Origin: Methylocystaceae bacterium
GTDB lineage: Bacteria; Pseudomonadota; Alphaproteobacteria; Rhizobiales; Beijerinckiaceae
Reading direction: 5' to 3'
DNA length: 64,000 nt
Assembly (NCBI GenBank): GCA_009773555.1
Contig: WSXZ01000022.1
Location: 1-64,000 of the forward strand
Notes under the pieces: generated by a model
The model's database searches: none
Told to the model about the DNA's origin: nothing
The model's input: the letters and a program-made list of their open reading frames with translations, nothing else
Translations under genes and position numbers: made by a program
Shown here: piece after piece, positions 23,142-26,739 of the stretch
Position numbering within the stretch: position 1 is the first letter of the stretch
How the letters are laid out: the number at the start of each line of letters is the position of its first letter

Positions 23142-26123
23142 ATGCAGCCTTCGGCGGAAGGAAAGGAATATTGGGCGATCGGAGCCGATGCGGCGCTTGA
23201 GCGCCTAGGCGCGACGCGTTTGGGCTTGAGCGAGGCTGAGGCAGAACGGCGGCTCGCCGTCCATGGCCCCAATAGCCTTCCGGCCGGCAGGCGGCGCAGC
23301 GCGCTCATGCGCTTCGCGCTGCAGTTCCATAACGTATTGATTTATGTCTTGCTCGCCGCCGCCTTCGTCACGGCGCTCATGCAACACTGGATCGACACCG
23401 CGGTCATCGTCGCGGTCGTCGTGATCAACGCGATCATCGGGTTCATTCAGGAGGGTAAGGCCGAAGAGGCCATGGAGGCCGTCCGCAACATGCTGTCGCT
23501 GCATGCGACGGTCATTCGAGACGGGAAGCGCGTCGTCGTCGACGCGACCGATATCGCGCCTGGCGACATCGTCTATGTCCAATCAGGCGACAAAATTCCG
23601 GCGGACATCCGTCTCATCCGGGTCAAATCTCTGAAAGTGCAGGAGTCGGCGCTTACCGGCGAGTCGCTGCCGGTCGACAAGGACCCGGCGCCGGTCATGG
23701 CGGATGTGCCGCTCGGAGATCGGGCTCCGATGGCCTATTCGGGGACTGTCGTGACCTACGGTCAGGGAACGGGCGTCGTCGTCGCCACGGGCGCCGCGAC
23801 TGAGATCGGGCGCATCAACGCCATGCTCTCGGAGGTGGAGACGCTCTCCACGCCCTTGTTGCAGCGCATGGACGAATTCGCGCGCTGGCTCACGGTCGTC
23901 ATTTTGGTCGTGTGCGCCGCCGTTTTCGCTTTTGGCGCGCTGGTCTGGGGATTCGACGTCGGCGATATGTTCATGGCGGCGGTCGGGCTCGCGGTTTCCG
24001 CGATCCCGGAAGGACTGCCGGCTATCATCACCATTACGCTGGCGATCGGCGTGGAGCGGATGGCGCGGCGCAAGGCGATCATCCGCCAACTGCCGGCGGT
24101 CGAAACGCTCGGCGCGGTGAGCACGATCTGCTCGGACAAGACCGGCACGCTGACGCTCAATGAATTGATCGTGCGCTCGATCGTCATCTCCGGCGGGACC
24201 TACGACACGACCGGGTCGGGATACGATCCGCATGGGGGCTTCTTGCGCAACGGCAAGGACGTCGTGGTGGGCGAGGACATTCACCTGACCGCGGCTTTGC
24301 GCCCTCTTGCGCTCTGCAACGACGCCGTGCTGCGCGAGAAGGACGGCGTCTGGAGCGTCGAGGGCGATCCGACCGAGGGCGCCTTGCTCGCCGCCGCCGT
24401 CAAAGGCGGCGTCAACTTGGAAAAGCTGGCGCTGGAACTGCCGCGCACGGATGAAATTCCTTTTGAGTCGCAGCATCGCTTCATGGCGACGCTGCATCAC
24501 GACCATGACGGCGCTGGCTACATTTTCGTCAAAGGCGCGCCTGAGCGGCTGCTCGAAATGTGCTTCTGGGAGCAGGACGTGCGAGGAGAGCAGCGTCCGC
24601 TCGACTGCGCCTGCTGGCTCGACCGCATCATTGAGATGGCCACGCGCGGGCAGCGGGTTTTGGCGGTCGCCTCCAAGAAAGCCGAAGAGGGTCAGCAGCA
24701 ACTCGCGTTCGGCGACGTTGAAAGCGGGCTCGTCTTTGTCGGTCTGATCGGCCTGATTGACCCGCCGCGCCCCGAGGCCGTCGAGGCGATCCGCGCATGC
24801 GCGACCGCCGGCATGTCCGTCAAAATGATCACGGGCGACCACGCCGCGACGGCGATGGCCATCGCCCGCGAACTCGGACTTAACCGTCCGGATTCCGTGC
24901 TCACCGGACGCGACCTCGACGCGATCGGCGACGAAGCGCTCGGCGAAGTGGCAAGCGCCACGACGGTGTTCGCGCGCACCAGTCCCGAACATAAGCTGCG
25001 ACTCGTTCAGGCGTTGCAGAAGCGCGGCGAAGTCGTCGCGATGACCGGCGACGGCGTCAACGACGCGCCTGCCTTAAAGCGCGCCGACATAGGCATCGCC
25101 ATGGGCGTCAAAGGCACCGAGGCCGCGAAAGAGGCCGCGGAGATGGTGCTTGCCGACGACAATTTCGCGTCGATCGTGCATGCGGTGCATGAGGGCCGCG
25201 TCGTCTACGAAAATTTGAAAAAGACCATCCTCTACATCTTGCCGACCAATGGCGGCGAGGGCCTCACGGTGATCGCGGCGATCGCCATGGGCGAGACCCT
25301 GCCGGTGACGCCCGTACAGATACTGTGGGTCAATCTGATCACCGCCGTCACGCTCGGCCTCGCGCTCGCGTTCGAGCCGCCGACCAAGGGCGTCATGCTG
25401 CGCCCGCCGCGCCCGTCAGGCGAACCGATCCTCTCCCGCTACTTCATCTGGCGCATCGTCTTCGTTTCTTTCCTGATGCTGCTCGCGACCTTCGGTCTTT
25501 ACGAATTGGAGAAGGCGCGGGGCATGGGGCTCGACAGCGCGCGAACGGTCGCGGTCAACACGCTCGTCGCCTGCGAAGTCGCTTATCTCTTCAACGCGCG
25601 TTTCCTTTCCGAGTCGTCGTTCTCGTTGAAGGGTCTGTTCGGCAGCCGCGCAGTGCTGATTTCCGTCGCCATCGTCGTCGTCCTGCAAGCGATGTTCACT
25701 TACGCGCCCTTTATGCAGGCGCTGTTCAACACCACGCCGCTCGACCCGGAAATGTGGGGGCATATCGCCGGCGCGAGCGTCGTGCTGTTTCTGCTCGTCG
25801 AGGTGGAGAAGGCCATTTTCCGTTCGCCCGCGAAGGCTCCTGCGCCGCCTGGCGTTCCTGTGGCGACGGCGACCGGCGCAGCCGCTGTCGTCGCGCCTGG
25901 CGACTGGGTCCGACCTGTCGTCGCCGGCCTATTGGGGCTGCTCATCATTGTCGTGAGCGGCGCGTTCTATCTTCACACGCGTGTCAGTCTCACGCGTGAA
26001 GAAGCGTCAGCGGGTCGAACGGTCGTCGGCGGCAGGCGTCGTCGCGACGCTCTCTTGCGACGTCGGCGCGCAAGTGGAGAAGGGCGAGACATGCGGGACG
26101 CTCGATGTGCGTCCGTTCGATGA
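23142..26123 (+). CDS. Type II P-type cation ATPase (CtpF-like) with extra C-terminal helix
   Basis: A PMA/SERCA-type pump with an N-terminal cation-ATPase domain, TGES at 172-175, PEGLP at 289-293, the phosphorylated Asp332 in DKTGTLT, and the hinge motif TGDGVNDAPALK. The helix around VNLITAVTLGLALAFEPP lacks the Asp of the NxxTD calcium motif and resembles CtpF-like pumps, so the ion is uncertain. After the usual ten helices a further helix appears at about residues 925-945 (PVVAGLLGLLIIVVSGAFYL), followed by REEASAGRTVV. The last 30 or so Arg-rich residues look like a wrong frame: from about 26028 another frame carries a HlyD-like adaptor. The true product may be a fusion. Confidence 0.85.
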   Translation: MQPSAEGKEYWAIGADAALERLGATRLGLSEAEAERRLAVHGPNSLPAGRRRSALMRFALQFHNVLIYVLLAAAFVTALMQHWIDTAVIVAVVVINAIIGFIQEGKAEEAMEAVRNMLSLHATVIRDGKRVVVDATDIAPGDIVYVQSGDKIPADIRLIRVKSLKVQESALTGESLPVDKDPAPVMADVPLGDRAPMAYSGTVVTYGQGTGVVVATGAATEIGRINAMLSEVETLSTPLLQRMDEFARWLTVVILVVCAAVFAFGALVWGFDVGDMFMAAVGLAVSAIPEGLPAIITITLAIGVERMARRKAIIRQLPAVETLGAVSTICSDKTGTLTLNELIVRSIVISGGTYDTTGSGYDPHGGFLRNGKDVVVGEDIHLTAALRPLALCNDAVLREKDGVWSVEGDPTEGALLAAAVKGGVNLEKLALELPRTDEIPFESQHRFMATLHHDHDGAGYIFVKGAPERLLEMCFWEQDVRGEQRPLDCACWLDRIIEMATRGQRVLAVASKKAEEGQQQLAFGDVESGLVFVGLIGLIDPPRPEAVEAIRACATAGMSVKMITGDHAATAMAIARELGLNRPDSVLTGRDLDAIGDEALGEVASATTVFARTSPEHKLRLVQALQKRGEVVAMTGDGVNDAPALKRADIGIAMGVKGTEAAKEAAEMVLADDNFASIVHAVHEGRVVYENLKKTILYILPTNGGEGLTVIAAIAMGETLPVTPVQILWVNLITAVTLGLALAFEPPTKGVMLRPPRPSGEPILSRYFIWRIVFVSFLMLLATFGLYELEKARGMGLDSARTVAVNTLVACEVAYLFNARFLSESSFSLKGLFGSRAVLISVAIVVVLQAMFTYAPFMQALFNTTPLDPEMWGHIAGASVVLFLLVEVEKAIFRSPAKAPAPPGVPVATATGAAAVVAPGDWVRPVVAGLLGLLIIVVSGAFYLHTRVSLTREEASAGRTVVGGRRRRDALLRRRRASGEGRDMRDARCASVR

Positions 26124-26739
26124 AGCGTTCGCGCGCGCGCAAAGCGCGCTGGCGGCCGCTGAGCGGCAACTGACGCAGCGCCAGAGCGCCCAGGCAAAGG
26201 CGCAGGCGAATCTTGACAGACGGGAGGCGCGGTCGGGACGTCGCGCCGCGAGCCGCAAGGCGCTTGCCAATGCGCGAGGCCTCTTAACGCGCGCGCAAGC
26301 GCAATTCGAACGCGCCGAAGCGGAAGTCGCTCTGCGCCGCGAGTCGCTCGCTAAGGCCGAGGCGGCTCGCGCCGACGCTGCGATTGTCGCCCCTATCGCA
26401 GGTTTTGTCTTAGAGCGCACGGCTGTTGTCGGCGCGCGTGTTGAACCGGGCGCGCCGCTATTCATGATCGGCGACGCCAAGACCGTTCGGCTTCGGGTGA
26501 AGACGGAGGGGGAGGGCGCCCTGACGATCGCGCCGGGCGCAGAGGCGGTCGTGACAAGCGAGTCGGTCCCTGGCCGGACGTTTTCAGGAAAGGTGACTGA
26601 AGCGCGCCGAACAGAGTCGGGTGCGCCGGTCGACGTCATCGTCGAGGTCGATAATCGAGAGTTGGCGCTTCGACCGGGAATGGAGGTTTCGGCGCGCATC
26701 GGAATCGTGGAGAGCGAAGCCTCCTCGACCGGCCTGTGA
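25981..26739 (+). pseudogene. HlyD-like periplasmic adaptor region, out of frame with the ATPase
   Basis: From about 26035 this frame encodes a membrane-fusion/adaptor protein without its usual N-terminal helix: a half-motif GVVATLSCDVGAQVEKGETCGTLD (lipoyl-like hairpin), an Ala/Gln/Arg-rich coiled coil, the second lipoyl half APIAGFVLERTAVVGARVEPG, and a beta-barrel ending RPGMEVSARI. The missing anchor helix is found at the C-terminus of the preceding ATPase in a different frame. The first 15 or so codons before GVVATL are not adaptor-like. The simplest reading is one gene, 23142-26739, broken by a deletion at about 26028-26037. Confidence 0.65.

Follow-up and report, generated by a model that had tools for sequence, protein, structure and literature searches.

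The window, a stretch of 64,000 nucleotides of contig WSXZ01000022.1 (C15) from a Methylocystaceae bacterium (assembly GCA_009773555.1), carries at positions 23142–26739 of its forward strand a gene for a P-type ATPase, followed in another frame by a periplasmic adaptor of the HlyD type. According to its closest named relatives, the genome belongs to the genus Methylocystis. Compared with the genes of its congeners, the locus reads as a broken version of a real Methylocystis gene, in which the pump and the adaptor form a single protein. The same adaptor, together with the helix that precedes it, is also fused to other pumps and energy proteins of this lineage.

The ATPase, the additional helix and the adaptor

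The open reading frame (ORF) located at 23142–26123 (+) encodes 993 amino acids, which make up a complete type II-like P-type ATPase. It contains the Pfam domains E1-E2_ATPase, Cation_ATPase_N, Cation_ATPase_C and HAD hydrolase, and the catalytic motifs LTGES, DKTGTLT and GDGVNDAPAL are present in its translation. The match to TIGR01494 (310.2 bits at a cut-off of 62.3) assigns the protein to the P-type ATPase superfamily. By sequence, its nearest solved structures are those of human SPCA1 and of the Listeria Ca2+-ATPase, and the predicted fold of an intact congener matches SERCA and SPCA1, with 33–35% identity to type IIA P-ATPases in the fold alignments. The ten-helix core and the catalytic motifs are shared with these type IIA enzymes (SPCA1/PMR1, Listeria Ca2+-ATPase, SERCA), whereas the C-terminal adaptor is an addition. 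The protein also remains below the NCBIfam equivalog cut-offs for Ca2+ pumps (TIGR01522, 652.3 versus 798.3; TIGR01116, 626.1 versus 703.4). In the alignment with SPCA1 and the Listeria enzyme, the aspartate of the sixth transmembrane helix, which is part of the Ca2+ site in Ca2+ pumps, is replaced by alanine.

An earlier, sequence-only reading of this DNA proposed that the ten-helix core is followed by an eleventh helix acting as the anchor of the adaptor, and both proposals are supported. The Kyte-Doolittle profile places a strong hydrophobic stretch beyond the core. In the AlphaFold model of L033, a protein of 1199 residues from an intact congener (mean pLDDT 77.8, pTM 0.58), the core is followed by a helix at residues 915–945 and a two-helix hairpin (998–1038 and 1044–1085), with strands compatible with two lipoyl halves and a beta-barrel. 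The eleventh helix aligns with the helix preceding the other fused modules, and a similar helix is seen by eye at the same position of a standalone relative (L165), so that this helix, with the entry strand, has the appearance of an anchor belonging to the adaptor itself. The odd number of helices would place the adaptor arm on the periplasmic side, as had been suggested. A comparable arrangement is known from SERCA2b, which has an eleventh helix with a lumenal tail. There, the extra helix likewise moves the C-terminus to the non-cytoplasmic side, but the tail is short and carries no adaptor domain.

The adaptor body lies in another frame than the ATPase, as the sequence-only reading had indicated; it occupies the +1 frame, within the ORF 25981–26739 (+). 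The first 16 codons of this ORF precede the break, where the fused gene is read in the other frame, and the homology to the congener adaptors begins at 26029. The ORF matches the profiles TIGR01730 RND_mfp (96.4 bits, cut-off 94.9) and HlyD_D23 (E 1.1e-18, 67.7 bits, cut-off 30), which together with the L033 model identify a periplasmic adaptor, or membrane fusion protein, with lipoyl halves, hairpin and beta-barrel. By sequence, the adaptor is MacA-like (PDB match 4dk0, E 3e-9; a further best PDB match is 9qgy). The AlphaFold model of the adaptor of an orthologue alone is poor (pLDDT 66.4, pTM 0.36), and its top fold match is MacA 3fpp (E 1.2e-13, TM-scores 0.34/0.39). MacA, the adaptor of MacAB-TolC, is among the closest known systems, with the best PDB matches by sequence and fold and with the lipoyl, hairpin and beta-barrel parts in common. 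The window family differs from it in the covalent link to a P-ATPase, in a length too short for the membrane-proximal domain and in the absence of the complete RLS motif at the hairpin tip, and no MacB gene was seen at the window locus.

Table 1. Features of the fused gene in the window (positions counted from the first nucleotide of the window).
Feature	Position	Strand	Evidence
P-type ATPase core, ten helices, type IIA-like, with catalytic motifs	23142..25839	+	Pfam/NCBIfam, PDB sequence matches, congener fold
Predicted eleventh transmembrane helix, residues ~920–946, apparent anchor of the adaptor	25899..25979	+	Hydropathy, AlphaFold, alignment
Linker plus entry strand before the break, read in the ATPase frame	25980..26028	+	Translation, junction alignment
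Break point: 47 congener columns absent, frame shifted	26028..26029	+	MAFFT; ends ambiguous by a few bases
MacA-like adaptor body in the +1 frame: alpha hairpin between two lipoyl halves, then beta-barrel	26029..26736	+	
C-x11-C pair, first cysteine codon	26056..26058	+	Conserved in fused modules
C-x11-C pair, second cysteine codon	26092..26094	+	Conserved in fused modules
Alpha hairpin, ~90 residues, complete RLS tip motif absent	26110..26379	+	Boundaries approximate

The intact form of the gene is found in the congeners. Of 36 further genus genomes searched, some of which are incomplete, 16 have an orthologue with 87–98% identity, and in 15 cases it is a single open frame of 1218–1252 codons from stop to stop. 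This supports the prediction of one ATPase-adaptor protein in the lineage. The junction of the 16th orthologue (L004) is intact as well, and the gene is then cut by the contig end. The last bases of this contig (G028:C72) resemble an Illumina adapter remnant, so the cut is attributed to sequencing rather than to a stop codon. At the frame switch, 47 alignment columns filled in all ten congeners aligned with MAFFT are absent from the window alone. As 47 is not a multiple of three, the gap shifts the frame, which is the effect of the short deletion that had been postulated here.

The break is either a genuine deletion or an assembly error. The whole locus could also be regarded as a decaying pseudogene or an assembly error, with two frames that are meaningless in this strain; among 17 copies compared the break is found only in the window, and the host assembly is a 4.0 Mb draft of 144 contigs. 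This explanation is improbable, since it has no bearing on the fusion in the relatives and selection on both parts is unchanged; for the family as a whole, the pseudogene-only reading was rejected because the orthologues in congeners are intact. The ratio of nonsynonymous to synonymous substitutions (dN/dS) between the window and eight relatives is 0.09–0.14 for the ATPase part and 0.33–0.50 for the adaptor part, compared to 0.29–0.42 for the adaptor between intact relatives (three pairs). Purifying selection acts on the adaptor, with a weaker constraint than on the pump and no additional decay after the break. As its dN/dS stays at the level of the intact copies, the break would be recent or artefactual.

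A separate observation concerns the synonymous distances (dS). Compared with L003, the window has a dS of 0.10 for the pump and 0.24 for the adaptor, and the adaptor is closer to L010 (0.17). Such a mismatch between pump and adaptor towards the same relatives suggests recombination inside the gene (23142–26739).

Distribution, fusion partners and origin of the module

Homologues ending without a fused adaptor, the case that the sequence-only reading had named against itself, do exist, mostly in other genera, but not in Methylocystis. Among 80 loci from named genomes, 69 homologues stop at most 19 residues from the matched core, four are fusions (L032–L035, three of them from named Methylocystis), four carry a different extension and three have interrupted or cut frames. 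The proteins with the different extension (L043, L054, L058, L072) are other proteobacterial P-ATPases, by their titles from methane or methanol users, and continue for 105–144 residues beyond the match, with hydrophobic stretches.

Among the loci examined, fusions of a P-ATPase and an adaptor are restricted to Methylocystis and the genus g66. The search with a single adaptor covered 149 genomes of the family and 289 of the class, and the search with model A3 covered 39 genomes of the genus, 13 chosen genomes, 397 of the order and 398 of the phylum, in overlapping sets. In the wide searches, about 5–15 candidates were scored per genome and ~150 rows were listed, so that rare fusions elsewhere may be missed. 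Outside the lineage, the best of the matches listed in the order and phylum searches are mostly frames of ~400–500 codons. Of the long frames outside the lineage, which occur for example in G627, G1044, G966, G711 and G704, the three taken as L161–L163 yielded no ORF with both of the ATPase motifs sought. A model built from 21 modules has matches at E 1e-10 in all 39 genus genomes, ordinary adaptors included.

Adaptors are separate partners of ABC, RND and MFS transporters. The covalent attachment of an adaptor to a P-type ATPase was not found in searches of open-access papers, in agreement with the sequence-only reading, which knew of no system of this build. Likewise, there is no mention of it in the excerpts of PMC4446572, PMC8277102, PMC10654040, PMC11237726, PMC6333641, PMC9600857 and PMC9445010.

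The window family, with its type IIA-like ATPase, is one of several partners of the module. The same anchor and adaptor are fused to three classes of P-ATPases, to the alpha subunit of F1, to CyoD and to AHSA1 proteins. A P1B-type ATPase, a hemerythrin domain and the HlyD module form single frames in L145:8476-11748 and L214:3834-7100. The P1B-5 ATPases are known for a C-terminal hemerythrin domain, and a C-terminal extra domain is thus common to both groups, but in the fused relatives an additional helix and the HlyD module come after it. In L149, the module is attached to a protein of the P3A proton-ATPase class (TIGR01647, 963.7 bits, cut-off 615.5), and in L125:7620-12503 a single frame of 1628 amino acids joins an AI-2E transporter, a P-ATPase and the HlyD module. 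The HlyD module with the cysteine pair also forms the C-terminus of ATP synthase alpha subunits, again in single frames (L173:5233-7743, L207:2245-4827, L208:3294-5864). The same HlyD module follows CyoD-like cytochrome oxidase subunit IV (COX4_pro) in L164:6626-7906, L209:4603-6066 and L219:4227-5339, and AHSA1-domain proteins in L166:7097-8560 and L169:5898-7487. Plasmid-borne subunits of the FoF1 ATPase of Methylocystis SC2 are described, in an excerpt of PMC9600857, as increased under high ammonium.

Two fused genes lie on the plasmid pGW6_1 of M. rosea, annotated only as 'HAD-IC family P-type ATPase', a title that conceals the large extra domain. Genes for small metal-binding proteins (smbP) are located near both of these plasmid-borne ATPases (NZ_CP034087.1, ~139506, 311829 and 323105).

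The standalone relatives of the module point to its probable origin. Nine standalone adaptors with the cysteine pair were examined, six of them from the taxonomic family of the window, and each is adjoined by a MacB-type ABC gene. In all eight scanned neighbours, the best NCBIfam match is MacB, with 324–527 bits and below the equivalog cut-off of 966; two of these eight genes run off the end of the locus. For the ninth gene, next to L228, the ABC motif is the sole evidence. L174, which is standalone-like, shows no MacB evidence and lacks the L and S of the tip, was excluded from the nine. The nine standalone adaptors cluster together (SH-aLRT 98) in a tree built from 61 modules. The partner types cluster as well, with 10 label changes compared to a minimum of 6 and a shuffled mean of 29.2. 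From 108 module rows with C-x11-C, 75 distinct ones remained, and of these the tree leaves out eleven orthologues of the window, the window's own piece (L205), L128 and a truncated P1B (L212). The adaptor probably has its origin in an ABC exporter of the MacAB type and would have been grafted onto several inner-membrane or membrane-attached proteins of the lineage.

The C-x11-C pair is present in 81 of 82 long module ORFs of at least 130 bits and in 25 of 86 shorter ones, an unfiltered count that includes repeats of one gene across loci and uses a model built from Cys-pair rows. Four of 53 module ORFs in loci from the order and phylum searches have the pair, and one of the four is Methylocystis. 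An exchange of domains between membrane fusion proteins and outer-membrane auxiliary proteins (MFP/OMA) in alpha-proteobacteria is described in an excerpt of PMC2850547. There, in the same class, parts of adaptors have similarly been swapped between protein families, but the recipients are outer-membrane auxiliary proteins and not pumps.

Possible roles of the adaptor arm

The preferred reading assigns to the adaptor the role of an oligomerising or tethering arm of the fused pump on the periplasmic side, and we give it about an even chance. In this scenario, the ATPase would pump its ion as usual, and its eleventh helix would carry the arm of lipoyl, hairpin and beta-barrel parts into the periplasm or into the intracytoplasmic membrane lumen. 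The arm still has the cysteine pair and a hairpin of unchanged length; the complete tip motif is gone, and so, in the window family, is the end that faces MacB in MacA. Its most likely action would be the clustering or positioning of the pump rather than the formation of a duct, and the cysteine pair could perhaps act as a disulfide or as a metal site sensing the periplasm.

A tether is favoured over a duct because the tip motif and the MacB-facing end are lost. According to an excerpt of PMC4446572, adaptors dock through an RLS motif at their tip, although the requirement is not absolute. The motif R...L......S is complete in 9/9 MacB-linked standalone adaptors versus 3/64 fused rows (3/48 when the window and its 15 orthologues are left out). 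This count leaves out L128 and L205 and includes the window piece, and the C-x11-C prefilter makes the cysteine pair present in 64/64 rows by construction. The tip in the window has the R and the S but not the L, and is not the complete RLS of MacA. The sequence past the end of the model comprises 0–4 residues in the 15 window orthologues and 71–96 in the nine standalone relatives, so that the membrane-proximal domain of MacA is absent in the window orthologues, judged by length only.

The genomic context makes a duct less likely as well. Domain matches to outer-membrane factors (OMF) number 27 in the window's genome, and none is on contig C15. Among 146 neighbouring ORFs around 20 fused loci (sets of 76 and 70, chosen from 212, with four window ORFs replaced), OEP occurs once in the second set and at most once in the first. 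The 25 of 71 and the 25 of 96 neighbour families listed include none common to the fused loci. The commonest ones listed are Usp (4/76), AcrB-type (3/76 and 2/70), HlyD (3/76 and 2/70) and TonB receptors (3/70), and SMBP and Nramp are found in 2/76 and 2/70 ORFs, respectively.

Several observations weigh against the tether and the steps leading to it. Some TolC-binding adaptors, such as CvaA, have no RLS motif (PMC4446572, in excerpt), and single tip positions are retained in the fused rows (R in 47/64, L in 11/64, S/T in 24/64). The hairpin is 85–94 residues long in 50/63 fused rows, a conservation that would also be expected of a duct. Seven other fusions, among them L126, L130 and L149, extend for another 66–74 residues, which could be the membrane-proximal domain, and OMF genes lie within ~7 kb of three other fused genes (on pGW6_1, at L129 and on the genome's own contig C88). 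The blocks of the L033 model that form the eleventh helix reach only pLDDT 39–51, and the periplasmic topology is argued from helix count and homology. The module tree is unrooted, and a direction from MacA to the fusion would follow from the wider range of the standalone form. Finally, the sequence shows the fusion, its retention across the genus, the likeness to MacA and the loss of the tip motif, whereas the topology, the direction of descent and the role as a tether are inferred.

The sequence-only reading had gone further and supposed that the cation is handed on to an outer-membrane partner. In such a conduit across the envelope, the adaptor arms, alone or mixed with MacA, would form a ring, dock onto an OMF and export the pumped cation. 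The adaptor fold, the preserved hairpin length, the OMF genes of the genome and those near the three other fused genes speak for it, as do the smbP genes near the two plasmid copies. It is nevertheless rather unlikely, given the loss of the complete tip, the shortness of the window orthologues and the lack of an OMF match on C15. Moreover, a hexameric adaptor ring would require six P-ATPases, and the module is also present on F1 alpha, CyoD, AHSA1 and a proton-ATPase-class protein, where export across the outer membrane would make no obvious sense. This part of the earlier proposal is not supported, and its probability was lowered.

A sensor of redox state or metals, in which the cysteine pair would be a periplasmic disulfide or metal site switching the pump and the hairpin a mere carrier, seems unlikely. 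The pair is kept across the partner types at 23–56% identity to the first row, and the SMBP and Nramp genes in the neighbourhood, with smbP at the two plasmid copies, would suit such a function. However, the same cysteines already occur in the MacB-linked standalone relatives and could be a simple structural disulfide.

The tethering arm can be extended to a broader reading, offered tentatively and considered doubtful. In Methylocystis and a sister genus, a mobile MacA-derived cassette of anchor and arm might be a tag of general use, attached to the C-termini of primary ion pumps and energy machines (P2A, P1B and P3A ATPases, F1 alpha, CyoD) and gathering them by hairpin and ring contacts, with the cysteine pair as a lock, into assemblies that face the periplasm or the intracytoplasmic membranes. 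If true, this would be a new mode of organising a bioenergetic membrane. The presence of one module on unrelated energy proteins of a single methane-oxidiser lineage raises the question of what an adaptor does once its docking ends are lost, and offers a direct way of testing what adaptors do apart from efflux.

The window's genome also contains, on contig C35, a P-ATPase of 1116 amino acids (L115:8759-12106), in which the core is followed by a further hydrophobic stretch and a terminal OmpA-like domain. Such an architecture fits the theme of periplasmic anchoring.

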